From NCBI RefSeq assembly GCF_004138125.1, contig NZ_RXHS01000007.1, positions 124,001-188,000 of the forward strand: 64,000 nt of DNA, written 5' to 3'. Of the stretch, positions 2,427 to 24,921 are shown one piece after another. The translations under genes and the position numbers were made by a program. Under the pieces are notes generated by a model. The model did no database searches, was not told where the DNA came from, and was given only the letters and a program-made list of their open reading frames with translations. This stretch comes from Seramator thermalis. Lineage in GTDB: Bacteria > Bacteroidota > Bacteroidia > Bacteroidales > Dysgonomonadaceae. Within the stretch, counting starts at the first letter, position 1, and each line of letters starts with the position of its first letter.

Positions 2427-3101
2427 TTATCCTAACAAATTTGAGAAACCGAAGTGAACGGCAATTGCCACGATCATAAATCCGAGACAAATGATGGTAG
2501 CAAAAATATTTCCAATAACTTTTATACGTTTCATCCATTTAGTGTTGTTCCAGCCAACGGTTTGAAGTGCACTCCAAAATCCGTGAGTCAAATGCAGCCA
2601 CAACGCTGCAAATGCTACGATATATATAGCAAGCACCCATCCGTTCGAGAGAACTTCGGTTACGAGCTGAGCACTATCTTCACGTGCTCCGGGTAATTGT
2701 AGCAATTCCTTGAATTGCATATTATACCAAAATTGGTATAAATGAACGATAAGGAATAACAGAATGAAAACCCCGAGAACAAACATGTTTTTCGACGACC
2801 ATGCAACCGGTGTTTTGCTTGCCGAAGCGTATCTGTCCGAACCCCGTGCTTTCCGGTTTTGCAGCGTCAGAATGATGGCGTAAATAATATGAACTACGAA
2901 ACCGAGTGCTATTACCCCCGTTCCGATGATTGCCCACCAATTGGCTCCTAATATTTCGTTTGCAATGAAATTATAGGCATCATAGCTGAAGATGAGCACG
3001 AGATTCATCGACATGTGAAACAGTAAGAACAATACCAAAAAAAGTCCGGAAATGCTTTGTACAAATTTCCGCCCGATAGAGGATTTTATTAACCAACTCA
3101 T
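2427..3101 (-). CDS. sdhC: Succinate dehydrogenase/fumarate reductase cytochrome b subunit
   Basis: This 224-residue membrane protein is the only membrane subunit visible in the operon, as expected for type B complex II, which has one five-helix diheme cytochrome b and no SdhD. Five hydrophobic segments can be seen, roughly at residues 15-35, 58-78, 103-122, 153-173 and 195-218. Histidines within or beside them (for example H29, H68, H120 and H168) are candidates for heme ligation. It is the first gene of the operon. The start ATG at 3099-3101 is followed by a short positively charged N-terminus. Confidence 0.93.
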   Translation of the reverse strand: MSWLIKSSIGRKFVQSISGLFLVLFLLFHMSMNLVLIFSYDAYNFIANEILGANWWAIIGTGVIALGFVVHIIYAIILTLQNRKARGSDRYASASKTPVAWSSKNMFVLGVFILLFLIVHLYQFWYNMQFKELLQLPGAREDSAQLVTEVLSNGWVLAIYIVAFAALWLHLTHGFWSALQTVGWNNTKWMKRIKVIGNIFATIICLGFMIVAIAVHFGFSNLLG

Positions 3102-3428
3102 AACATTCTTTTATTTTCAGTGATTTAATTGTTTGTTGTGATACAGCGCAAATATTTGAAAATGAATTTATTTATAAGTAAAAAGAAATTTTCTCCGAAT
3201 AGCACTAAAACGGATTGCAAAAATACTACTTTTGACCATTAAAAAGAATTATTTACGGAAATTTTTCCGTAATGCTGTTTTTTTAGAATGAATATAATTT
3301 AACCTCAGAATCATTGTTTACACAAACATAATGAAAAGTTATTGATTATACAAAAAAGATCTGCCTTCGTTTTCTTTTGTTATCTTTGCACTCTCAAAAA
3401 AATATTGTTTCTTTTTGCATCAGAAATC
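3102..3428. other. Divergent intergenic region between sdhC and trpS
   Basis: This 327-base AT-rich spacer separates two divergent transcription units. Apart from the trpS -7 element I see no gene in it. A TATTTG-like word lies upstream of sdhC (around 3150-3175 on the minus strand) but does not match the full TAnnTTTG consensus, so the sdh promoter is left uncalled. Confidence 0.5.
3381..3388 (+). promoter_or_regulatory. Candidate -7 element of trpS
   Basis: TATCTTTG matches the Bacteroidota -7 consensus TAnnTTTG and is 40 bases upstream of the trpS ATG. No TTTG is seen at the usual -33 distance, so the call rests on the -7 word alone. Confidence 0.5.
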
Positions 3429-4418
3429 ATGGACATAGTTTTAAGTGGTATTCGTTCTACCGGCAATTTGCATTTGGGAAATTATTATGGGGCATTGCGC
3501 AACTTCATCCGCATGCAGGATGAGAATCAATGTTATTTCTTTGTTGCCGATGTGCATTCGCTTACGACACACCCTGATCCGCGATATTTGCATGAAAATG
3601 TGAAAAACGTTTTAGTCAATTATCTTGCTGCCGGCATCGATCCCGAAAAATCGGTAATTTATGTGCAGAGTGATGTCCGCGAAACGTTTGAGTTATATTT
3701 GTTTTTGAATATGCATGCCTATATGGGTGAACTTGCAAAGACTACGTCCTTCAAGGAAAAAGCGCGGAAACAGCCCGAAAACGTGAATGCCGGACTTTTG
3801 ACCTATCCCACGCTGATGGCTGCCGATATTCTGGTTCACAATGCCGACAAGGTGCCTGTCGGGAAAGATCAGGAACAGCATCTCGAAATGACACGACGTT
3901 TTGCCCGCCGATTCAATAATTTTTATGGGGTGGAGTTTTTCAAAGAACCTGTAGCGTATAACTTTGGGCAAGAACTTATCAAAATACCCGGATTGGATGG
4001 AAGCGGAAAAATGGGCAAGTCTGAAGGCAATGCCATTTATTTGGCAGACAGTCCCAAAGAAATTGAGAAAAAAGTGAAAAAAGCACTTACCGATTCCGGA
4101 CCCACTGAATTTAATTCTCCCAAACCCGAATATATCGAAAATCTTTTCACTATTCTTCGCGTTGTTTCTGCTCCCGAGGTAGTGCAACATTTTGAAGATT
4201 TGTGGAACAGATGTGAAATTAAATATGGCGATCTGAAAAAGCAATTGGCAGAAGATATTATTAAGGTTACTGCACCTATCAGGGAGCGAATTATCGAAAT
4301 AGAAAACGACGAATCCTATTTGAGGAAAGTTACTACCGAAGGTGCCGAAAAAGCTCGCGAAAGCGCTTCGAAAACTATCCGGCAGGTGCGTGAAATCATG
4401 GGATTCAAACCGTTCTGA
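3429..4418 (+). CDS. trpS: Tryptophan--tRNA ligase
   Basis: This class I aminoacyl-tRNA synthetase charges tRNA-Trp. The HIGH-like motif appears as GNLHLGNYYG near residue 14 and the KMSKS-like motif as KMGKSEGN near residue 195. With the start at 3429 the protein has 329 residues, normal for bacterial TrpRS (about 325-350), and it begins with the typical MDIVLSGIRSTG. The reading frame stays open to 3342 but the extra N-terminus would lie over the promoter and matches no family feature. The gene stands alone and is followed by a strong hairpin. Confidence 0.96.
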   Translation: MDIVLSGIRSTGNLHLGNYYGALRNFIRMQDENQCYFFVADVHSLTTHPDPRYLHENVKNVLVNYLAAGIDPEKSVIYVQSDVRETFELYLFLNMHAYMGELAKTTSFKEKARKQPENVNAGLLTYPTLMAADILVHNADKVPVGKDQEQHLEMTRRFARRFNNFYGVEFFKEPVAYNFGQELIKIPGLDGSGKMGKSEGNAIYLADSPKEIEKKVKKALTDSGPTEFNSPKPEYIENLFTILRVVSAPEVVQHFEDLWNRCEIKYGDLKKQLAEDIIKVTAPIRERIIEIENDESYLRKVTTEGAEKARESASKTIRQVREIMGFKPF

Positions 4419-4434
4419 CTATTTATTCACTAAA

Positions 4435-4493
4435 CATGCACGACGATTCATGTATCCTTGAATTGTTGTGCATGCAGAATCAGCTTTTTTTTT
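4435..4493 (+). terminator. Terminator of trpS
   Basis: A 16-bp stem (4435-4450 pairing with 4459-4474, two G-U pairs in RNA) with an 8-base loop is followed ten bases later by nine T residues. The distance to the T-run is longer than usual, so efficiency is uncertain. Confidence 0.7.
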
Positions 4494-4639
4494 GCTTCCA
4501 TTCAAGTGTGTATCTTAGCTGGTGATTGTTCACTATATAAAAGGATATAGTTTTTTTCAATCCGAAATGATACCATTTCCAAAATATATTCTCCAATATT
4601 TTTTTTGCACTTGCCAATTTTTTCCCGGCAAAACCCCAC

Positions 4640-5300
4640 TCGTCATTTTGCCGAACAACCATTTCACCGTCACATGATGTATTTCCCCTTTTGCGGAACG
4701 ACCAATCACTAATCGAAAAGGTTACCGGACTGTTAAAGGAACGATAATTTGATGTGTGAAATTACCGTTTGTTATCACGCGGAACGACTTTTGTGCAGAC
4801 ACAAAACCTACTTTCCATTTTGCGGAACAGGTTTTTATCGGTAAATCACCCCTTCCGCAGGATGCGGAGCACCCTGTTTTTGCCGAATTGCCCGCTCTTC
4901 ATCACGCGGAACGACCAATGTCTGTTTGAATTGTTCACTCCGCAAAATGAGGAACGACCTTTTTCACCCGAAAAAGGTTGTTCGGCGTTAAAAGCAACGA
5001 CCTTTGTTCGCAGACAAAACTCACTCGTCGTCGCGAGGAACGGCTTTTGTGTCTGCACAAAAGCCACTCCCCCTTAAAAATAGTTATCGAAAACGGCACA
5101 ACATCCCATAATTTGTTAACGGAGTGGGTCATGTAAATCGTAAAAGGTCGGTCGTCAAAGTGAAAAGCGACCATTTTGGGTTCACAAATGCCATTCCGCA
5201 TTTTGGAAAGTACGTTTTGTGTGAACACAAAGGTCACTCGTCAAAATGGAAAGGGACCAATGTTATGACACAAAACCCACTCGTCGCGTTAGAAAGTGTA
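4640..5300. repeat. Island of degenerate intergenic repeats with small hairpins
   Basis: The stretch is built from diverged copies of a unit with the words ACTCGTC, ATTTTGCGGAACGACC and TTTTGTG-tetraloop-CACAAAA. The GCGGAACGAC core or a close variant occurs near 4651, 4693, 4779, 4822, 4906, 4949 and 5034, and an inverted copy of the ATTTTGCGG word near 4938 and 5192. Three hairpins have four-base loops: 4789-4806, 5042-5065 (perfect 10-bp stem) and 5216-5231. Unit spacing is irregular. Open frames crossing it are short and only echo the repeats, so I do not call a gene. Its function is unknown. Confidence 0.7.
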
Positions 5301-5340
5301 AAAAGTGATATAAAACTGCCGTTTCAACTTAACGACTATA

Positions 5341-5790
5341 TCTAAATGTAAATGAACGTAAACATATTTACGAATCAAAATAAATGTAATATTAAATAAA
5401 TATTGATATTAAATTTCATAAATTAATAATTTATTTTGAAGATAAAAGCCGATGTAAGGAAACGAGTATCTAACAGTTTTCGAAACTTGTTAGATACTCT
5501 GAAATTTCATCATCTTTAAGTAAGAATTTACGATTTGAGAAAATGAATTTACGATTTGAGACATTCTCCATTTTCTGATTTCATACTTTTACATCCAAAA
5601 TTGAATTGATTGAACGTATTTGGAACGCAGAAAGATGCTGATATATATATTTTATTGTGAGAATTTTTTTCCGATTGCCAAGTATTCATCATTGTTTGTT
5701 CGTACGATAATTTATTCTTCATTAAAACTTAAAACAATTACAGAAGACAAATACAAATTCTATTTTAAACCCATTAAAAATTAAACGGTT
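5341..5790 (+). promoter_or_regulatory. AT-rich upstream region of the peptide-modification locus
   Basis: This 450-base gene-free stretch precedes the small peptide gene at 5791. It holds the 17-bp direct repeat listed separately and a weak -7-like word TACTTTTA at 5584-5591, one mismatch from TAnnTTTG. If that word is used, the leader would be about 200 nt. No perfect Bacteroidota promoter was found here, so expression may depend on an activator or another sigma factor. Confidence 0.4.
5524..5561 (+). repeat. 17-bp direct repeat with 21-bp period
   Basis: GAATTTACGATTTGAGA occurs exactly twice, at 5524-5540 and 5545-5561. The 21-bp period places both copies on the same face of the helix, as expected for a dimeric activator. 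LytTR-family regulators bind 9-bp direct repeats about 21 bp apart, but the match to their consensus is only partial. Confidence 0.6.
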
Positions 5791-5928
5791 ATGGAGAACA
5801 GTCAAGAATTTCCCAAAACGGTTGAGCTCTATGAAGCTCCCGCCATTGAAGTAACGGATATCGAAACCGAGCAAAACATCCTCGGAGGAAGTGGAACACC
5901 ACCTGATTTTGATGGAGGTGATTGGTAA
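5791..5928 (+). CDS. Short RiPP precursor-like peptide, 45 residues
   Basis: This 45-codon gene is the first of the 5791-12407 locus. The peptide is acidic, with a leader-like first half and a Gly/Asp/Pro-rich end. Visible features are Y14-E-A-P17-A-I19, which fits the YxxPx(L/I) motif read by PqqD-like proteins in lasso-peptide leaders, a G32-G33 pair after an I-L, and the tail SGTPPDFDGGDW. Counting from G32, D39 is position 8, the spacing of a lasso macrolactam; cleavage after G33 would free a 12-residue core. Short Bacteroidales peptides of the form YxxPxIEVxxIE are, from memory, common and uncharacterised. No Cys is present, so lanthipeptide or sactipeptide chemistry is unlikely. Upstream AAAATTAAACGGTT is a typical A-rich Bacteroidota start context. 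The function as a precursor is inferred from the neighbours. Confidence 0.7.
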   Translation: MENSQEFPKTVELYEAPAIEVTDIETEQNILGGSGTPPDFDGGDW

Positions 5929-5975
5929 ATTTCGATTTAAATAGTGAGTTTTATCATTTTAATAACAGAATAATT

Positions 5976-7961
5976 ATGAAGAAAATACTAATTTTATCCG
6001 TAGTGCTGACCGCTTTAATCGCAGGTTGCGCTGACAATAAAGAAATCGTCGAAGAGCAACAGACGGGGAAGGGGCGCACCATCACTCTTACGGCATCCAT
6101 GCCCGATGAGGGATCGGAAACTGCACCGGCTACGGGCGCAGAAACCCGAATTGCTCTTACGCCCGATGGGAAAAACATCAAACTTACCTGGCAAGCCAGT
6201 GATCAACTTCAACTCTGCTTTGTACAGGGCAGCACAAAGGTGAAACAAACGGTTGCGGTAAGTGATATTTCTGTCGATGGGAAACGGGCTACGTTCGATA
6301 TTACTATTCCGACAGAAATAACAACCGGAACATTCGATTTATACGGAATGTATGGTGGAGGAGGTTTATCCGACACTGACCCGACGATTGCCATTCTTCC
6401 TACGGGACTATCATTGGCCGGAGACTTGACGGGTGTGCAAAACCAAAAACACGTAATGCTCAAGTTTAGCCAAACAGGTATCGATGTCAATAATCCTTCA
6501 ATATCCGTTACATTTTCGCACCTCGGTTCTCTTTTTTCGGTACGTTTAAAAAACACATCAGCTTCATCCTGGGATGGCATCTCCAAAATAAAAATTATAG
6601 CTGACACAGGGCAATGGTTGTATGGAGACGAGAATGGCGGAGTTCAATATAATCTTGTATCGGGAACGTTTGTTTCGGGACCTGTATCTAACAATTATAT
6701 GGCCTTCAATTTGTCTTCACCCATTAATTTGCCGGCAGGGGAAGAAAAACAATTTTGGGGCTGGTACCCGCCCGTTTCTGATGTTCCTTCATTGAGGTTG
6801 GAAGTATTGAACAGTAGTGATGCAATCCTTGCCCAAAGCTCCAATAGCAGACCCTCTCGAGATGCTTCCTCCGGAAAGAGTTACTACTTCTATGCAGTAT
6901 GGGATGGTACATTGCTGAAGTTTGCAGACGATGCTTTTTCACCCCGTTCGATGATGGAAGATTTGTCCCTTACAGGAGATATCATGCATGCTGCAGAAGG
7001 GACCGATTTCATTGGAATCGTTTATTCCAAATCGGGATCTGTTTACTATAATGCCGCAAAATTTGACGGCACATGGACCGGCGAAACTTTGTTGGGTGAA
7101 GGAACAGAAGCTCGAATAGCCATCGATGGCGGCAATCATCCTCATGTGGTCTATACCTCCGGCGGGCAAATTATTTACCGTACAACTTCCGATGGCACAA
7201 ACTGGAATACAGAAAATATTACTTCCAACTATGGAGGAACTTGTTCCAGGCCCGATATTTCCGTCGATGCAGAAGGGTATGCCGACATCAGTTATACAGA
7301 TAGTAACGGAGATGGAGATGGATACAGAGATATTATGTATGCAGAAAACAGCTCGGGAACATTTGTGAAAACTTTATTCTTTAATGGATATTATTACTAT
7401 TCGAGTGGATCAAAATCGGCTGCTTATTATGATAAACATTCCTACATTGCATTAGATGGAGACGATCAATTTAGTATAATCACTTGGGCGCACTCATTTT
7501 ATGGAGGAATAGGGTTTACAGATCATTCTTATTCCGTTGTCATAAAATCATCAACTAGCGCAAGTGGCGGAACAGCCGGAACATCAGGGGACACTCATGA
7601 TGTATATGATATAGCCTTTAATGGCACCGATGTGGTGGCTCTTTTTAAAGATAATAATGTGAACAAGACCGCTGTTTTGCAGACAAGCGGAACGACCATC
7701 AACTTTACCAACTCTTCGGATATTGCTACTACGGGTGTTACCCCCACTTCGTTGTCGGTCAATGCTTCTCATACGGTAGTGAGCGGCTATGTCGGTTCAA
7801 CTCTTTTTACAAAATACGATACGTATGAAAATACGTATTCCGAAATAACCATAAAATCGGGAACGAAGCCGGCAGTAGCTAATGTTTACGGAATTTTTTA
7901 TGTAGTATACACCGACAATGCCGGGAGTGTGAAAATTGTGAGGGTGAAAACATCCGCCTGA
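5976..7961 (+). CDS. Surface lipoprotein with fimbrillin-like N-terminus and propeller-like C-terminus
   Basis: The 661-residue protein starts at 5976 with a lipoprotein signal peptide and lipobox LIAGC (Cys18). Residues about 30-310 resemble the Bacteroidota fimbrillin-like family: a TRIALTPDGK segment, LTWQASDQLQL, then a long beta-rich part with the GWYPP segment. From about residue 330 onward there are repeats of the type DGGNHPHVVYTSGGQIIYRT and DAEGYADISYTDSNGD, which suggests a BNR/Asp-box-like beta-propeller. It lies 47 bases after the peptide gene and 63 bases before the kinase gene, same strand. Possible roles are receptor, target or self-protection factor for the peptide product, or an unrelated surface protein caught in the operon. 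Family assignment is by eye. Confidence 0.7.
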   Translation: MKKILILSVVLTALIAGCADNKEIVEEQQTGKGRTITLTASMPDEGSETAPATGAETRIALTPDGKNIKLTWQASDQLQLCFVQGSTKVKQTVAVSDISVDGKRATFDITIPTEITTGTFDLYGMYGGGGLSDTDPTIAILPTGLSLAGDLTGVQNQKHVMLKFSQTGIDVNNPSISVTFSHLGSLFSVRLKNTSASSWDGISKIKIIADTGQWLYGDENGGVQYNLVSGTFVSGPVSNNYMAFNLSSPINLPAGEEKQFWGWYPPVSDVPSLRLEVLNSSDAILAQSSNSRPSRDASSGKSYYFYAVWDGTLLKFADDAFSPRSMMEDLSLTGDIMHAAEGTDFIGIVYSKSGSVYYNAAKFDGTWTGETLLGEGTEARIAIDGGNHPHVVYTSGGQIIYRTTSDGTNWNTENITSNYGGTCSRPDISVDAEGYADISYTDSNGDGDGYRDIMYAENSSGTFVKTLFFNGYYYYSSGSKSAAYYDKHSYIALDGDDQFSIITWAHSFYGGIGFTDHSYSVVIKSSTSASGGTAGTSGDTHDVYDIAFNGTDVVALFKDNNVNKTAVLQTSGTTINFTNSSDIATTGVTPTSLSVNASHTVVSGYVGSTLFTKYDTYENTYSEITIKSGTKPAVANVYGIFYVVYTDNAGSVKIVRVKTSA

Positions 7962-8024
7962 TTTCGCATTCTGAAGGAAGAAATATACATAAATGAATTT
8001 CGAAAAAAAAGCGTATCCATATCG

Positions 8025-8918
8025 GTGAAACAGCGGGTTTATTATCGTATTGCGGGTTTTTTGATTGCCGTTGAATCGGACGATGCGAAAAAAACGGAAC
8101 GTTTGTTGCCCAATTTTGCTCCCTTCCGGGTAAAAAACGAAGAGGCGACGTGCAAAGGCGGGGAGAATCTGCTGTTCTGCTTATCGTGCAACGAATCGGT
8201 TTACGTTATGAAAGACATGACGATTGCAGACGATTTCCGATGGAACGGCATTCGCTATGAGGTATATCGCAACGTTGAGGGTGAACAGCTTATCCGAATG
8301 CGTAAGAACGATAACTGCCGTTTACTTCATGCCGACAAAGGTTGGAAATTGCCGGTGACGGATGTGACGTTGAAGGGGGAGACCGAAAACGAATTTTTGA
8401 ACAATTTTCTCATTGTGAGTTTCGGAATGGCTTCGGCACTGTTTTCCACGTTGAAGCTGCATGCTTCGGTAATCGAAAAAGAGGGGAGAGCGTTGCTTTT
8501 TTTGGGGAAAAGCGGTACAGGGAAAAGTACGCACAGCCGTCTTTGGCAACAATATGTACCCGGTTGTTCGCTGCTGAACGACGATGAGCCGGTGGTGCGT
8601 GTAAACGAAAGAGACGAGGTGACAGTTTACGGCACACCGTGGAGCGGCAAAACGCCGTGCTATCGGAACGAAAAAGCCCGCGTGGCCGCTTTTGTTTTGC
8701 TTCATCAATCTCCGGAAAACCGCCTCACGAAATTGAGCGCGAAGGAAGCCTTTTTCACGTTGTTTGCCTCAAGCAGTATGATGCGCTCGGATGTTCATCA
8801 TAAAAATGCCGTTTTCGCTACCCTTGCCGCAATACTTGAACATGTACCGGTTTACAGACTCGATTGTCGTCCCGACCGTGAAGCAGTAAGTTTGACAGAA
8901 TCGTTGCTCTTTTTGTGA
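8025..8918 (+). CDS. HPr kinase-like (HprK C-terminal type) protein kinase
   Basis: This 297-residue protein has a P-loop GKSGTGKST near residue 160, then LLNDDEPVV, matching the second acidic motif of HprK, and YGTPWSGK with NEKARVAAFVLL, typical of the small HprK-like proteins in RiPP clusters. The N-terminal half is not the HprK regulatory domain. Related kinases in some lasso-peptide clusters phosphorylate a C-terminal Ser of the precursor; here the precursor ends in Trp, so S34, T36 or another target would be needed. The start is GTG at 8025, which fits the YYRIAGFLIAV beginning of this family. The next gene follows after 3 bases. The substrate is not known. Confidence 0.75.
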   Translation: MKQRVYYRIAGFLIAVESDDAKKTERLLPNFAPFRVKNEEATCKGGENLLFCLSCNESVYVMKDMTIADDFRWNGIRYEVYRNVEGEQLIRMRKNDNCRLLHADKGWKLPVTDVTLKGETENEFLNNFLIVSFGMASALFSTLKLHASVIEKEGRALLFLGKSGTGKSTHSRLWQQYVPGCSLLNDDEPVVRVNERDEVTVYGTPWSGKTPCYRNEKARVAAFVLLHQSPENRLTKLSAKEAFFTLFASSSMMRSDVHHKNAVFATLAAILEHVPVYRLDCRPDREAVSLTESLLFL

Positions 8919-8921
8919 AAG

Positions 8922-9419
8922 ATGAAGGAAAAAACGAAAATCGTACGCAACGACATTTTTTTTGATGAAATTGCCGATCGAGTTGCTGCAGGAGAAAAGG
9001 TAATCATCAAAGCTAAAGGTGAGAGCATGAGACCTTTCATCCGAAACGGGTGTGACAAAATTATACTGGAAAAACTCGAGAGTGAGGATTTAAAAAAAGG
9101 AAATATCGTTTTGGTACGGTTGAGTGACGGTCGTTTTGTTGTTCACCGCATCGAAAAGGTCGAAAAAGAGGGTCTTGTTTTACGTGGTGACGGAAACCTT
9201 GCTACCCTTGAAGTTTGTCGATTCCAAGATGTTGTAGCTCAGGCAACGGCAGTTGTCCACAACGGTAAAATGATTACTAAAGGGAGTATTCGATGGAAAT
9301 GGCAAGGTTGGTTATGGCCTTCCGGCGTTTTTTTACGCCGGCTATTGTTGGGATTGGACAGGCGTTGGAGTCGAAAAACGGGAATAGAACTTGAGACATT
9401 AACCGCAGAAAAACGATGA
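8922..9419 (+). CDS. S24/S26-type signal peptidase-like protease (Ser/His type)
   Basis: The 165-residue protein has KGESMRPF with Ser35, the nucleophile motif of signal peptidase I. Where bacterial enzymes have the catalytic Lys there is VVHRIEKV with His75, as in the SipW/Sec11 type, followed by RGDGN with D90. A hydrophobic, Trp-rich stretch at about residues 127-148 could associate with the membrane, but there is no N-terminal anchor. It overlaps the PqqD gene by four bases and follows the kinase by three, so the genes are translationally coupled. I infer that it cuts the leader of the peptide at 5791, since the ABC exporter has no C39 peptidase domain. Its site of action is not certain. 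Confidence 0.72.
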   Translation: MKEKTKIVRNDIFFDEIADRVAAGEKVIIKAKGESMRPFIRNGCDKIILEKLESEDLKKGNIVLVRLSDGRFVVHRIEKVEKEGLVLRGDGNLATLEVCRFQDVVAQATAVVHNGKMITKGSIRWKWQGWLWPSGVFLRRLLLGLDRRWSRKTGIELETLTAEKR

Positions 9420-9682
9420 AAATAAAGAAAAATATCAGCATAAGAAAGATAGGGGATGAATATTTATTAATCCTTAATGACGGCAAAAATGCGGATTATA
9501 CGCGAGTAGTGAGCATGAACGGGTCTGCTGCCTTTCTGTTGCAGCAAACGGCAAACGAAGAATTTACCGTTGACCAATGGGCTGCACTGCTTGTGGAAAA
9601 ATACGAAATCGATTACGGACAGGCATCCGTCGATGCCGAAGCATTAGCTGAAAAATTGTGCCGGGCAGGCGTAGTTGCATGA
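9416..9682 (+). CDS. PqqD-like peptide recognition protein
   Basis: This 88-residue protein matches the PqqD family in length and pattern: an N-terminal beta hairpin with DGKNADYTRVVSMNGSAAFLL, followed by a helical half with FTVDQWAALLVEKYEID and AEALAEKLCRAGVV. PqqD-like domains form the winged-helix element that binds the leader of RiPP precursors and presents it to modifying enzymes. It is the strongest single sign that the locus handles a ribosomal peptide. The ATG overlaps the end of the protease gene (ATGA-type), and the stop overlaps the start of the nucleotidyltransferase gene. The partner enzyme it would deliver the peptide to is not obvious here. Confidence 0.85.
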   Translation: MKIKKNISIRKIGDEYLLILNDGKNADYTRVVSMNGSAAFLLQQTANEEFTVDQWAALLVEKYEIDYGQASVDAEALAEKLCRAGVVA

Positions 9683-10803
9683 ACAGGTCGGACATTTATC
9701 CACTTTTTCTGGAACTGTTGGTTTCGGCTATTCGGAACCGACCGGTAAAGGAATCCCTATTTGAGAATGTAAGCGAGGAAACCTGGAGTTTATTGGTGCG
9801 TTATGCGGGCATTCAACGAGTGAATGCCCTGATTGCCGACGGCGTGGCCAAACTTCCGGAGGTATATGCTCCGCCCCGTTCATTAGCTGTTTTGCTTTTG
9901 TTGCATGCCGAAAAAATAGAAGCAGCAAACAGGGAGTTGAACCGGGTTTTAACGGAAATTGTTCATGAGCACGAAGCGGCCGATTTGCCTTTCGTATTGT
10001 TGAAAGGACAAGGGAATGCGCTTTATTATCCCAACCCTCTGCATCGCACTCCGGGTGATCTGGACCTGTATTTTTACCGGCAAGGCGATTATGAGCGGGC
10101 AAAAAAACAGGTTATCGAAAAAAGATATCCTTTGGAAGAGGAAAGCATAAAGCATCAAGGATACAACCGGGGTGCAGTTCATATTGAAAATCACAAGACT
10201 GTTGAGGTGGTTCACCTTAAAAAAATCGACAAAAAGCTGCAACGGAAAGTAAAGGAGATAACGGATAAGGAAAATTTTGAAATCATCCGTATAAACGAAA
10301 CGCCTATACGTGTTCTACCTATAGAATTCAATGCTTTATACCTTTTTATACATCTTTTTCATCATTTTGTTTATTTTGGAGTAGGCATGCGCCAGATATG
10401 CGACTGGGTGTTGTATCTTTCTGCCCGCCATGCCGAAATCGACAAAAAAAAGTTTACGGAAACAGCTCTGGAATTTCATCTGCTTCGTCCGATGCGTGTT
10501 TTTGCACATGCCACCGTGAAATATTTGGAAATGCCACCCGAAATTTTTCCTTTCGAGTTGGGAGAATATACGCCTTATTCCGATTTGGTGATGAACGATA
10601 TTTTGGATGGGGGTCATTTCGGATTTTATCATTCCGGCAAAAAACGTCCTGCAGGAAAATGGAGTGGTAGGTGGTTTTCTTTCAGACATGCCGTACAAAG
10701 AAGTTGGGTATATGCTTCCATAGCGCCGTCCTATATTTTTACCATGCCCATTTACAAATTTTCTACGCGATTGAAATTGACATTAAAGGATTTTCGATGC
10801 TGA
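9679..10803 (+). CDS. Nucleotidyltransferase family protein (NTP_transf_5 type)
   Basis: The 374-residue protein shows VLLKGQGNALYYPNP near residue 106 and TPGDLDLYFY near residue 124, the KG and DxD metal-binding pattern of the uncharacterised nucleotidyltransferase family PF14907. Such genes are frequent in lasso-peptide and other RiPP clusters, where their role is mostly unknown. The helical C-terminal half (PIEFNALYLFIHLFHHF and following) fits the family. The ATG at 9679 overlaps the PqqD stop as ATGA and the end overlaps the ABC gene by seven bases. It could add a nucleotidyl group to the peptide or to another protein; no substrate can be read from the sequence. Confidence 0.78.
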   Translation: MNRSDIYPLFLELLVSAIRNRPVKESLFENVSEETWSLLVRYAGIQRVNALIADGVAKLPEVYAPPRSLAVLLLLHAEKIEAANRELNRVLTEIVHEHEAADLPFVLLKGQGNALYYPNPLHRTPGDLDLYFYRQGDYERAKKQVIEKRYPLEEESIKHQGYNRGAVHIENHKTVEVVHLKKIDKKLQRKVKEITDKENFEIIRINETPIRVLPIEFNALYLFIHLFHHFVYFGVGMRQICDWVLYLSARHAEIDKKKFTETALEFHLLRPMRVFAHATVKYLEMPPEIFPFELGEYTPYSDLVMNDILDGGHFGFYHSGKKRPAGKWSGRWFSFRHAVQRSWVYASIAPSYIFTMPIYKFSTRLKLTLKDFRC

Positions 10804-12407
10804 AGTTTTTGCGGCATATTGTCAAAGGTTTTCGTTGGCATTTAACGGCAATTGTGTTGATAGGCATTGCCGAAGTGGGATTGTCATTGCTCTTTGTGTG
10901 GTTTTCGAAAATCATCATCGACATAGCCACAGGTGCACGAACAGGCGTATTGCTACAATATGCCGTTTTTCTTATTTTATTGATCGCAACACAGATTATG
11001 TTACGGATGTTGGATGTTCGTTTGCGGAACATCACCGAAGTCCGGTTGGGAAATACCATCAGACATACTGTTTTTTCGCATATTCTTTATACAAGGTGGA
11101 AAGAATTACCCACATTGCATAGTGGAGATATGCTTACCCGTATTATTCGGGATACGGACGACGTGGTAAATGTGCTTGTTACGGCTTTTCCGTTGACAAT
11201 TTCCGCATTGGTCCAATTTATCGGTGCAGTGGTTTTATTGTTTGTTTTAGATCCTGTACTGGCCATAATTCTGGGAGTTGCAATGCCGCTGATTGCCTTG
11301 TTCGGAAGGGTTTACTACCATAAGATGCGGAAGTATTCGCATGAAGTAAAAAAAGGAGAAAGCCGTATTACGGAATGGATCGAGGAAAGTTTGCTGAATC
11401 AATTGGTGATACGTACTTTTGAAAAGCAGGATGACCGTCTTGCCAAATTGAAAACGCTGCAAAATGATCTGGAACAGAGCGTAAGCAAAAAAACAAACGT
11501 ATCTGTATTGGCCAACACATTAATGAGTGTGGCATTTAACGGAGGGTATATTGCGGCATTTCTGTGGAGTGCATACGGACTGGCGAAAAAAACAATTACT
11601 TTTGGTACGGTTACTGCATACTTGCAATTGGTTTCGCGCATACAGCGTCCTGTCTACGATTTGATACGCCTGCTGCCCGGAATAATTGCGGCAAAAGCAG
11701 CTTACGATCGGTTACACGAATTGATGAAGTTTGAATTGGAAAATCATGAGGACAAGATTTTTTCGCCGGGTGCTTTGAGGCTAACGATAGAAAATCTTTC
11801 CTATGCATATTCATCTGATTATCCTGCTGTTCTGCAAAATTTCTCTTTAGATGTTGCTCCGGGAACAATGGTTGCTGTGGTAGGTAAAACCGGGGCAGGA
11901 AAAACAACTCTTTTGCGTTTGCTGCTCGGCTTATTGAAACCGGACAAAGGGTCGATTCTTGTTGGAAACGAAACCCAACTGCTTGAAGTTTCTGAAGTTA
12001 CACGCCCCAATTTCGTTTATGTTCCGCAACGCAATTTGCTTTTCAGTGGGACAATTCGCGATAATTTATTGATTGGGAATGAAAAGGCCGATGACGGAAT
12101 GCTGCGAGAGGCATTGATGGCTGCTTCCGCATCATTTGTTTTCGATTTTCCCGATGAGTTGGATGCCTATTTGAGCGAAAATGGATCAAGTTTATCCGAA
12201 GGTCAAGCACAACGCATAGCTATCGCCCGTTCGTTACTTAGGCCGGGAAAAATTCTTTTGTTGGATGAAGCAACTTCGGCTTTGGATATCGAAACAGAAA
12301 AGAATTTCCTGCATCACCTGAAGCAGGGTATCGGGGACAGAATCGTGATTTTTGTTACGCATCATGTGGAGGTGGTGAAGTGCTGCGATATTGTGGTAAG
12401 GATTTAA
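10797..12407 (+). CDS. ABC exporter, fused membrane and ATPase domains
   Basis: This 536-residue half transporter has six predicted membrane helices within residues 1-300 and an ATPase domain after about residue 330. Walker A is GKTGAGKTT near residue 363, the signature is LSEGQAQRIAIARS near 467 (LSEGQ in place of LSGGQ), and Walker B is ILLLDEATSALD near 486. It has no N-terminal C39 peptidase domain, so any leader removal must be done by another protein. The ATG at 10797 lies inside the end of the nucleotidyltransferase gene. Its position as last gene of the locus suggests export of, or resistance to, the peptide product. A longer open frame to 10671 overlaps the preceding gene and is not supported. 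Confidence 0.85.
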   Translation: MLKFLRHIVKGFRWHLTAIVLIGIAEVGLSLLFVWFSKIIIDIATGARTGVLLQYAVFLILLIATQIMLRMLDVRLRNITEVRLGNTIRHTVFSHILYTRWKELPTLHSGDMLTRIIRDTDDVVNVLVTAFPLTISALVQFIGAVVLLFVLDPVLAIILGVAMPLIALFGRVYYHKMRKYSHEVKKGESRITEWIEESLLNQLVIRTFEKQDDRLAKLKTLQNDLEQSVSKKTNVSVLANTLMSVAFNGGYIAAFLWSAYGLAKKTITFGTVTAYLQLVSRIQRPVYDLIRLLPGIIAAKAAYDRLHELMKFELENHEDKIFSPGALRLTIENLSYAYSSDYPAVLQNFSLDVAPGTMVAVVGKTGAGKTTLLRLLLGLLKPDKGSILVGNETQLLEVSEVTRPNFVYVPQRNLLFSGTIRDNLLIGNEKADDGMLREALMAASASFVFDFPDELDAYLSENGSSLSEGQAQRIAIARSLLRPGKILLLDEATSALDIETEKNFLHHLKQGIGDRIVIFVTHHVEVVKCCDIVVRI

Positions 12408-23256: not shown

Positions 23257-24921
23257 CTAAAAACCGTCGATATGTACATCTTTTACGGAACGGCCCGAGG
23301 GGTCAGCATTATTTTTGAAAGCAGCATCCCATTCGAGGGCAACAGATGTGCTGCATGCAACGGAGGCTTCTGAAGGGACGCATCGTGCCGCACTGTCCGA
23401 GGGGAAGAGTTCGCTATAGATGGAACGATACACGTATTCCTCTTTGGTCATTGGCGGATTGATGGGAAAACGATATTGTACGTTTTCCATTTGTTCGTCC
23501 GAAACTTTCTCGTTGGCTATAGCTTTGAGAGAATCGATCCAGCTATAGCCGACTCCATCGGAAAATTGTTCTTTTTGTCGCCAGGCAATTTCTTTGGGCA
23601 GATAATCCTGAAAAGCTTCACGTAGAATATGTTTCTCTATTTTGCCGTTGCATGCCATCTTATCGCGAGGGTTGAGGCGCATGGCAACATCCAGAAATTC
23701 CTTGTCGAGAAAAGGTACGCGTCCTTCCACACCCCATGCTGCAAGCGACTTGTTGGCACGCAGACAATCGTAGAGATGCAGCTTGCCGAGTTTACGCACT
23801 GTTTCTTCGTGAAACTCTCGTGCATTTGGCGCTTTGTGAAAGTAGAGATAGCCTCCAAAAATTTCGTCGGCGCCTTCGCCTGAAAGTACCATTTTTACGC
23901 CCATCGATTTGATATAACGTGCCAACAGATACATGGGAGTGCTGGCCCGTACGGTGGTAACATCGTAGGTTTCGATGTGGTAAATGACATCGCGAATAGC
24001 GTCGAGCCCTTCCTGTACGGTGTAATGAATTTCGTGATGAATGGAACCGATGTGTTCGGCCACCTTGCGCGCAGCAGCCAAGTCGGGTGATCCTTCAAGT
24101 CCAATAGCAAACGAATGAAGGCGAGGCCACCAAGCTTCTTCTTTGTTGCCACTTTCGATGCGTCGTGCAGCAAATTTTTTTGCAACAGCGGAAATGATAG
24201 AGCTGTCCAATCCTCCGGAAAGGAGGACTCCGTAGGGTACGTCGGACATCAGCTGACGTTCTACGGCATCTTCGAGAGCTTTACGAAGCGTTTCAACGTT
24301 GGAGGTATTGTCCTTCACATTGTCATATTCCATCCAGTCCCGATGATACCATTGTGTGGGTTGACTGTCACAACTGTAGAAATACTGTCCGGGTAAAAAT
24401 TCTTCGATTTTGTTGCAATAGCCCTCAAGCGCTTTCAACTCCGAAGCCACGTAGTAGGCTCCATCTTTGTCCCATCCCTGATAGAGGGGAATAATGCCGA
24501 TGTGGTCGCGTCCGATCAGAAAGCGATTGTTTTCGATGTCATAGAGAGCAAAGGCAAAAATTCCATTGAGATCCTCAAGAAAGTTCGGTCCCTTTTCGCG
24601 ATAGAGTGCGAGGATGACTTCGCAGTCCGATTGGGTGAGGAATTCGTACTTCCCTTCGAAATGTTTGCGTATTTCGCGATGATTGTATATTTCGCCATTT
24701 ACTGCCAGCACCAATTTTCTATCCTTGCTATAGAGTGGTTGTCCTCCCGATTCTGGATCTACGATTGAGAGGCGTTCGTGAGCCATAATGGCTTTATCGT
24801 TCGAAAAAATTCCCGACCAGTCCGGCCCGCGATGACGGATGGTTTTCGACATTTTGAGGATTTGCGGACGCAATGATTCTTCCGGCCGTTTTATATTGAA
24901 GGTACAGACTATTCCACACAT
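23257..24921 (-). CDS. asnB: Asparagine synthase B, glutamine-hydrolysing
   Basis: This 554-residue enzyme makes asparagine from aspartate, ATP and glutamine. Cys2 in MCGIV is the amidotransferase nucleophile, and the PP-loop SGGLDSSIIS lies near residue 235. The glutaminase domain spans about residues 2-190 and the synthetase domain the rest, as in E. coli AsnB. It follows gltD by 49 bases. Although AsnB homologues serve as cyclases in lasso clusters, the intact glutaminase domain and the setting point to primary metabolism. Confidence 0.96.
   Translation of the reverse strand: MCGIVCTFNIKRPEESLRPQILKMSKTIRHRGPDWSGIFSNDKAIMAHERLSIVDPESGGQPLYSKDRKLVLAVNGEIYNHREIRKHFEGKYEFLTQSDCEVILALYREKGPNFLEDLNGIFAFALYDIENNRFLIGRDHIGIIPLYQGWDKDGAYYVASELKALEGYCNKIEEFLPGQYFYSCDSQPTQWYHRDWMEYDNVKDNTSNVETLRKALEDAVERQLMSDVPYGVLLSGGLDSSIISAVAKKFAARRIESGNKEEAWWPRLHSFAIGLEGSPDLAAARKVAEHIGSIHHEIHYTVQEGLDAIRDVIYHIETYDVTTVRASTPMYLLARYIKSMGVKMVLSGEGADEIFGGYLYFHKAPNAREFHEETVRKLGKLHLYDCLRANKSLAAWGVEGRVPFLDKEFLDVAMRLNPRDKMACNGKIEKHILREAFQDYLPKEIAWRQKEQFSDGVGYSWIDSLKAIANEKVSDEQMENVQYRFPINPPMTKEEYVYRSIYSELFPSDSAARCVPSEASVACSTSVALEWDAAFKNNADPSGRSVKDVHIDGF

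Follow-up and report, generated by a model that had tools for sequence, protein, structure and literature searches.

We analyzed an operon at positions 5791–12407 of the window, a 64,000-nucleotide stretch of the Seramator thermalis genome (contig NZ_RXHS01000007.1, positions 124,001 to 188,000). The locus likely encodes a cyclase-free maturation machine that is guided by a recognition element for ribosomally synthesized and post-translationally modified peptides (RiPPs), together with one substrate of that machine. On the plus strand, its genes read 45-residue peptide, lipoprotein, HprK-like kinase, S24/S26-type protease, PqqD-like protein, PF14907 nucleotidyltransferase and ATP-binding cassette (ABC) exporter; all seven collinear open reading frames (ORFs) of the original prediction were found, in the order it gave. 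That prediction had described a RiPP-like operon with lasso-type accessory genes, and we retain its core, namely RiPP-type maturation by lasso-type accessory enzymes with no cyclase in the operon, but not the picture of a lasso cluster with missing parts. Tentatively, and with somewhat less than even confidence, we further propose that the kinase, the protease and PqqD form a trio on the chromosome whose precursors, dispersed over the genome and numbering up to 17 or more, become linear, serine-phosphorylated peptides (phosphoglycosylated where the nucleotidyltransferase is present). These would be displayed with, or would regulate, type V pilin-like adhesins at the surface of Bacteroidales cells, and would constitute a new RiPP-like class.

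The small gene (5791–5928, plus strand) encodes a peptide that is the only match in its own genome to our two peptide profiles, with E = 2.9e-20 for profile A2 and E = 9.4e-13 for profile A3. A2 was built from six peptides, five from a collection of 80 kinase loci described below and the sixth from genome G000, and A3 has 27 rows, partly seeded from A2 matches. A plain regular expression for YxxP peptides gave mostly noise, whereas the profiles worked. None of the 27 A3 members matched Pfam or NCBIfam at E ≤ 0.01. Across the 89 distinct peptides that we compared, the family pattern is YxxPxxE[VI]...E..[ILF], with a serine at Tyr+19 or Tyr+20 and then a variable tail rich in glycine, aspartate and tryptophan. 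YxxP served as the selection anchor and is hence found in 89/89. Outside the anchor, Glu or Asp occupies Tyr+6 in 72/89 peptides, Val, Ile or Leu occupies +7 in 81/89, and position +16 is hydrophobic in 88/89. The serine is present at +19 or +20 in 82/89 peptides (at +19 in 53/89, at +20 in the window peptide), and two-residue windows beyond Tyr+20, from +21/+22 onward, hold a serine in 5–19 sequences each. The tail contains abundant Gly, Asp, Glu, Ser and Asn, and a tryptophan lies within the last 12 residues of 65/89 peptides. The original prediction had given the motif as YxxPx(I/L); the leader motif of lasso clusters is YxxPxL. With YxxP as the anchor, the sixth place is hydrophobic (YxxPx[ILVFM]) in 65/89 peptides and is Leu in 7. 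YxxPxxE[VI], followed by a conserved serine further down, describes the family better. Several peptides from loci L138–L166 also share an RRG.W..LW-like C-terminus, so that the otherwise variable tail holds a further conserved element there.

Selection on the family was apparent at the protein level. The proportion of nonsynonymous differences (pN) was below that of synonymous differences (pS) in 24 of 24 family pairs, with medians of 0.22 and 0.57; 24 of 25 pairs were kept (one was too short), the pairs overlap, pS approaches saturation in some of them, and they consist of relatives of the window peptide. We therefore regard the peptide family as selected as protein. Judged from its sequences, it is a family of putative small precursors with a conserved leader and a variable tail, in line with the earlier description of the 45-residue ORF as a precursor-like peptide gene. 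An all-against-all search for conserved small genes near the kinases returned no other precursor candidate among its 22 largest groups, which comprised PqqD, cassette genes read in other frames, what look like repeat elements, and YxxP peptides from four loci.

The kinase gene (8025–8918, plus strand, starting at GTG 8025) gave no Pfam match over the cut-off. Its best NCBIfam relatives were ScmC and HprK_rel_A, both weak (E about 5e-7) and below the cut-off: it scored 29 bits against cut-offs of 200 for HprK_rel_A (TIGR04352) and 125 for ScmC (TIGR04249). HprK_rel_A and SynChlorMet ScmC kinases belong to PqqD-containing systems; the window operon differs in having no radical S-adenosylmethionine gene. 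The AlphaFold2 model of the kinase was confident, with a mean predicted local distance difference test score (pLDDT) of 90.8. Foldseek placed this model in the PEPCK/HprK superfamily, with PEPCK first and HPr kinases from E = 5.5e-5, and VIA-align matched it to PEPCK with a Z of 14.9 over 245 residues at a root-mean-square deviation of 4.1 Å. Residues H146, S163-G164, G166, K167, S168, D186 and D187 were invariant across 139 kinases. The lasso-cluster kinase BsfK has the residue set H148-G163-G166-G168-K169-S170-D186-D187 according to the accessible sections of PMC10368454 (reference residues for lasso kinases were also taken from those of PMC9266682), and all of its H-G-G-G-K-S-D-D residues are present in the window kinase. 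The counterpart of BsfK G163, G161, is nearly invariant among 18 kinases and lies outside the set conserved in at least 88% of the 139. By its sequence, the kinase is a carrier of the His/Lys/Asp/Asp set of lasso-peptide kinases, and peptide phosphorylation is its predicted activity.

The protease (8922–9419, plus strand) matched Peptidase_S24 over the cut-off (E = 2e-6) and archaeal-type signal peptidase I below it (E = 1e-10). S26 signal-peptidase-like enzymes carry the motifs S-M-x-P, H-R and G-D. Among 128 proteases, S35-M36, H75-R76 and G89-D90 were invariant, including the Ser-His-Asp signature S35, H75 and D90, and P38 was present in 126/128; the window protease fits this S26 motif set, while the signal peptidase models themselves stayed below the cut-off. 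PqqD (9416–9682, plus strand) matched PF05402 over the cut-off (E = 1e-8), and its best NCBIfam match, at E = 4e-6 and thus short of the cut-off, was to the model NF033530 for lasso PqqD chaperones; N35 was found in 121/122 relatives and D73 in 122/122. A PqqD-fold protein of this kind, a putative discrete RiPP recognition element (RRE), adjoins the predicted modifying enzymes, which fits an RRE-dependent RiPP system in which it would bind the leader. The nucleotidyltransferase (9679–10803, plus strand) matched PF14907 with E = 6e-40, and K109-G110, R123, D127, D129, E170 and D242 were invariant in 48/48 sequences. The ABC exporter (10797–12407, plus strand) gave only the membrane domain PF00664 and the ATPase PF00005 over Pfam cut-offs; its most likely start, by inspection, is ATG 10797 (the ORF is listed from 10671).

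Phosphorylated lasso peptides offer precedents for how such genes may act together. In the accessible sections of PMC10368454, BsfK phosphorylates Ser3 of BsfA, the PqqD-like BsfB1 strongly stimulates BsfK, and the RRE-binding Tyr of BsfA lies at −17, which makes the Tyr-to-Ser distance 19 residues. For pseudomycoidin, reviews accessible in part describe a kinase (PsmK) that phosphorylates a terminal serine and a nucleotidyltransferase-like protein (PsmN) that adds hexoses. From these precedents we infer the following scheme. PqqD would bind the YxxPxxE[VI] strand of the precursor and present the precursor to two enzymes. The HprK-type kinase probably phosphorylates, by analogy, the conserved serine 19–20 residues past the tyrosine. 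The S26-type protease would cut near this serine, either after an A-x-S or x-G-S site, which would fit the −3/−1 preference of signal peptidases, or two residues before the serine (lasso numbering), and the product could be either the tail or a Ser-ended leader. Where present, the PF14907 protein would elaborate the phosphate with a hexose or a nucleotide, and the ABC protein would export the product. The original suggestion that kinase and nucleotidyltransferase are the modifying enzymes thus gains support as a prediction. In the window peptide, the presumed PqqD/RRE-binding motif is Tyr14-Glu-Ala-Pro17 (codons 5830–5841, plus strand), whose Tyr and Pro are invariant in the 27-row A3 alignment. 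The predicted phosphorylation site is Ser34 at Tyr+20 (codon 5890–5892, plus strand), on the basis of family conservation and of BsfK acting on Ser3 in the accessible sections of PMC10368454. We rejected a C-terminal serine as the kinase target, as in paeninodin, because 0/89 peptides end in Ser.

Next to the single locus, we examined the cassette in other genomes. A kinase scan gave at least 595 pattern matches and 590 confirmed relatives, from which 80 loci were kept; 79 of these carry labels of Bacteroidales, or at the least of Bacteroidia, and the remaining one is from Sphingobacterium; gut and rumen genomes were frequent among them. In a profile search of these 80 loci plus the window, S26 was found in 77/81, PqqD in 76/81, the PF14907 nucleotidyltransferase in 12/81 and ABC in 37/81, some of the 37 being unrelated ABC ORFs. 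Since the S26 protease and PqqD are near-constant and the other two genes are sporadic, the core of the cassette is the trio kinase–S26–PqqD, with the nucleotidyltransferase and the ABC gene optional. Within the family to which the window belongs, the kinase was patchy (32/101 genomes). The 36 loci of this family, several of them on short contigs, held S26 in 30, PqqD in 26, the nucleotidyltransferase in 25 and the peptide in 15; in the 23 loci with at least 6 kb on both sides, the counts were 20, 21, 19 and 15. The peptide count of 15 includes one truncated remnant, at 9395–9487 on the minus strand of L204, which overlaps the 3' end of the kinase gene. No PqqD or S26 was found beside that kinase, and the locus resembles a deletion scar. 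The window order peptide–lipoprotein–kinase–S26–PqqD–nucleotidyltransferase–ABC was repeated in L198, L199, L200 and L215.

Some loci showed other arrangements. In L210–L213 (genus g212 of the same family), a conserved lipoprotein of 133–139 residues with CS[GS]PKG[MV]VKIEP lies between S26 and PqqD, and the peptide was not found in these four loci. A distant kinase relative in L234 (genome G238, E = 6e-28) has an adjoining YxxP peptide and PqqD, and the limits of the system may therefore be wider than those of the kinase family as defined here. Nothing pointed to a mainly mobile cassette: the matches among mobile elements were a single viral-contig fragment of 33 residues and three records from plasmid collections, of which one measures 1.77 Mb. 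L258, on a 77-kb record of Phocaeicola massiliensis labelled plasmid, carries PqqD–nucleotidyltransferase–ABC–kinase–S26 at 2446–6797, in the same order as L076.

To see how the peptide and the kinase are distributed, 393 genomes of the order were searched with the kinase and peptide profiles; the kinase profile A1 includes L061, whose contig equals that of G078 in length (143042), which probably makes G078 a genome that supplied a seed. None of the kinase contigs fetched for the order set matches in length those of the five A2 seeds taken from the 80 loci. The kinase was found in 42/393 genomes at E ≤ 1e-20, 26 of them at E ≤ 1e-60. With A2, the peptide was found in 26/393 genomes, 17 of which also had the kinase at E ≤ 1e-60 against about 1.7 expected (Fisher p = 3e-17). 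With A3, 20/24 peptide genomes had the kinase at E ≤ 1e-20 compared with 22/369 others (p = 2e-18), and 5/6 of the A3 peptide genomes that gave no seed had it. The peptide was present in 4/351 kinase-negative genomes of the order. Several genomes encoded the peptide repeatedly: at least 17 matches in G055, 11 in G111, 8 in G326 and 6 each in G008 and G213; for some genomes a subset of the peptide candidates was scored (17/22 in G055). The genes of such multi-peptide genomes lie on several contigs; in the exception, G213, they are mostly far apart on one large contig.

The precursors are thus often remote from the cassette. We searched 50 genomes chosen non-randomly from the 80 loci, namely 37 (of 41) without a nucleotidyltransferase or ABC match, 13 with ABC and 0 with the nucleotidyltransferase. 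The peptide was found in 43/50 of them at E ≤ 0.01 (37 at E < 1e-3), with up to 17 matches in G412 and 11 in G408, yet it lay within the fetched flanks in only 2 of those 50 loci. The peptides would therefore be acted on in trans. According to the proposed scheme, many genomes of the order would have a trio that stands apart and serves many precursors, and the window would be a case of a single precursor in cis. The original prediction asked whether a small gene always precedes this gene set and took its regular absence as a blow to the RiPP reading. In cis such absence was seen in part (peptide in 9/80 loci, in 15/23 of the same family and in 4/24 further kinase loci of the order), and the search in trans answered it with peptides in 43/50 genomes.

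Several observations weigh against this functional pairing. The p values above ignore kinship: kinase and peptide partly follow phylogeny, and their independence is overstated. The peptide occurred without the kinase in G038, G166, G239 (65% complete) and G293 (89%). Among the 26 strong-kinase genomes, 8 lacked the peptide with A3 and 9 with A2; those without an A3 peptide were G078, G087, G178, G182, G245, G305, G368 and G383, of which G368 had an A2 match. Of the 50 kinase-locus genomes, 7 gave no peptide, and the 50-genome figure was set against kinase-negative genomes of the order at large, not of the same families. Pairing in cis was often absent, as the 9 of 80 loci indicate, and no S26 was found in three peptide-bearing loci (L070, L217 and L218). 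The serine count, moreover, was made on sequences collected by profile, and almost every seed of those profiles already had this serine; the two serine registers, +19 and +20, coexist without explanation.

The first of these points leads to the alternative that the peptide family and the trio are clade markers, co-inherited without joint function. Consistent with it, the kinase (E ≤ 1e-60) was found in 13 families, the A3 peptide in 15 and both in 11, counts that ignore kinship. A control in the family of G111 was uninformative because both genes are near-universal there (kinase 13/15, peptide 11/15). In the window's own family, on the other hand, two sampled genomes have both genes and four have neither, and the kinase is patchy, as noted above. 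Mere co-inheritance also accounts poorly for the repeated cis linkage with identical gene order and for a lasso-type RRE adjoining a leader whose YxxP motif is itself lasso-like. We consider this alternative unlikely.

Beside the trio, the peptide genes are connected to lipoproteins. About 41/86 peptide genes lie directly upstream of a same-strand lipoprotein gene, a raw count given without a genome-wide background rate. For 38 of the 86, a lipobox gene was found within 250 nucleotides by a simple rule (L116 looks spurious), and four more were called lipoproteins by eye (L051, L107, L227 and L230); 3/89 peptides were set aside for missing flank. Alignment A5 took 39/42 candidates, omitting L116 as spurious-looking, L103, and L199 as a near copy of L198. 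All 39 of these partners keep the lipobox Cys, and a T...W...D pattern recurs in many. Pfam gave Mfa_like_1 in 5 of them, Fib_succ_major in 4, LRR_5 in 3, and Laminin_G_3, Big_2, fn3 and the Sialidase N-terminal domain in 1 each.

The window lipoprotein (5976–7961, plus strand) had no Pfam match, and the L215 lipoprotein is 29% identical to it. Its start is most likely ATG 5976 by inspection, the ORF being listed from TTG 5922. Its structural model had a mean pLDDT of 42.8; only stretches within about residues 34–280 can be relied on, and the model is poor past that point, which leaves the C-terminal half unassigned. With this model, Foldseek found as best matches putative cell-adhesion proteins of Bacteroides (E down to 1e-9), with Mfa2 of P. 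gingivalis lower. This suggests that the N-terminal half may be type V pilin/fimbrillin-like, as far as a partly confident model allows. The frequent pairing of precursor genes with lipoproteins of adhesin-like type points to a product that probably works on the cell surface, where the paired lipoproteins would be its partners.

The same pairing could mean that the small ORF serves the lipoprotein genes as a regulatory leader, acting by attenuation or translational coupling and unrelated to the trio. The 41/86 ORFs directly upstream of a same-strand lipoprotein gene speak for this possibility. Such a leader would not be expected to show amino-acid-level selection and conserved Y, P, E and Ser residues, nor a strong co-occurrence with the trio, and many peptide genes have no such gene downstream (28 have no ORF of 100 residues within 250 nucleotides). 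We hold a purely regulatory role to be quite improbable.

A role of the cassette mainly in exopolysaccharide synthesis, with the peptides as a side issue, appears very unlikely: the cassette adjoins glycosyltransferase and/or Wza/Wzc-like genes (by eye) in L018, L062, L206 and L120/L236, yet no such genes were recognised beside the window cassette, and in L062 and L120/L236 the peptide–lipoprotein pair lies within the same cluster.

We also examined whether the locus belongs to a lasso cluster. The resemblance to lasso-type accessory genes is genuine for PqqD, the kinase, the nucleotidyltransferase and the ABC gene. The B2 protease and the AsnB-like cyclase, claimed to be missing, were found neither at the locus nor in its own genome, which argues against the earlier suggestion of a cyclase encoded elsewhere. 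Specifically, no B2 leader peptidase (Transglut_core3, PF13471) was over the cut-off in that genome, the best match having E = 0.26 and two stops. The genome's strong Asn_synthase matches are two halves of one gene, with a third match below the cut-off; this gene, at window positions 23257–24921 on the minus strand, is asparagine synthase B (928 bits against a cut-off of 499) and is the only strong AsnB match. In 140 other loci, phmmer with AsnB found 0 AsnB/cyclase homologues at E ≤ 1e-3. No ring acceptor was enriched in the 82/89 peptides used for this count: Asp or Glu occurred at core positions 7–9 in 42/82, in 38–47/82 for each of the neighbouring core windows (4–6 to 13–15), and one core had no acid at all. 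The lasso reading is attractive because the window peptide alone fits the Gly1-Ser3-Asp8 pattern of BsfA: counted from two residues before Ser34, its core is GGSGTPPD.... Despite this fit and the lasso-type accessory genes, a lasso product, from a cluster whose B2 and cyclase are lost or elsewhere, is most improbable given the searches of its own genome and of the 140 loci and the absence of a family-wide ring acceptor, and we ruled out a lasso with a distant cyclase on these grounds.

The preferred reading, a cyclase-free RRE-dependent system, can be compared with known ones. Phosphorylated lasso systems (BsfA/BsfK/BsfB1, paeninodin with PadeK, and pseudomycoidin with PsmK/PsmN) share with it a PqqD-like RRE, an HprK-type kinase, a nucleotidyltransferase, an ABC exporter and YxxP, and the Tyr-to-Ser spacing of 19 in BsfA equals that of 53/89 peptides here, with 20 in the window. 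Unlike them, the window system has no B2, no cyclase and no conserved ring acceptor, and has an S24/S26-type protease instead; its family motif continues with E[VI], many precursors are remote, and there is a link to pilin-like lipoproteins. In prochlorosins, one maturation machine acts through lanthionine synthetase chemistry on numerous scattered precursors, whose leader is conserved and whose tail varies. The likeness lies in the trans-acting precursor set, and the difference in the kinase, S26-type protease and RRE found here. Type V pilin/fimbrillin adhesins (FimA, Mfa; PF13149) may resemble the N-terminal half of the partner lipoprotein in fold, according to the partial model. They differ in that the lipoprotein here is paired with a small peptide gene and that some partners carry lectin-like, leucine-rich-repeat or immunoglobulin-like domains; no pilus operon was recognised at the window locus. 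The known kind to which the system would belong is RRE-dependent RiPP maturation, and the case for a separate class is plausible.

Among the matches listed in a search of the open-access literature, with subscription papers largely outside it, we found no account of the peptide family, nor any of the trio together with precursors scattered elsewhere. A survey of Bacteroidales RiPPs mentions PqqD once, in the reference list, within its accessible sections (PMC10352776). A lasso genome-mining rule, as described in the accessible part of PMC13289728, combines PF13471 with Asn_synthase and would miss the present system; the precursors are also often too distant from the RRE for cluster searches. 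If our reading is true, a common unnamed family of Bacteroidales small proteins gains a machinery for its maturation, a predicted site of modification and a partner at the surface, and HprK-like, PqqD and PF14907 proteins that occur without a cyclase gain a context.

As for the layout, tight coupling is limited to the last five genes of the operon. The gaps are 47 nucleotides between peptide and lipoprotein, 63 between lipoprotein and kinase and 3 between kinase and S26, followed by 4-nucleotide overlaps at S26–PqqD and PqqD–nucleotidyltransferase and a 7-nucleotide overlap at nucleotidyltransferase–ABC. The neighbours include trpS upstream and corA further downstream. The upstream repeat island of the original prediction proved to be a real, degenerate repeat stretch at about 4614–5286, between trpS and the operon. 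It consists of six degenerate 32-nucleotide direct repeats whose successive starts lie 172, 170, 43, 213 and 43 nucleotides apart, distances near multiples of 43.

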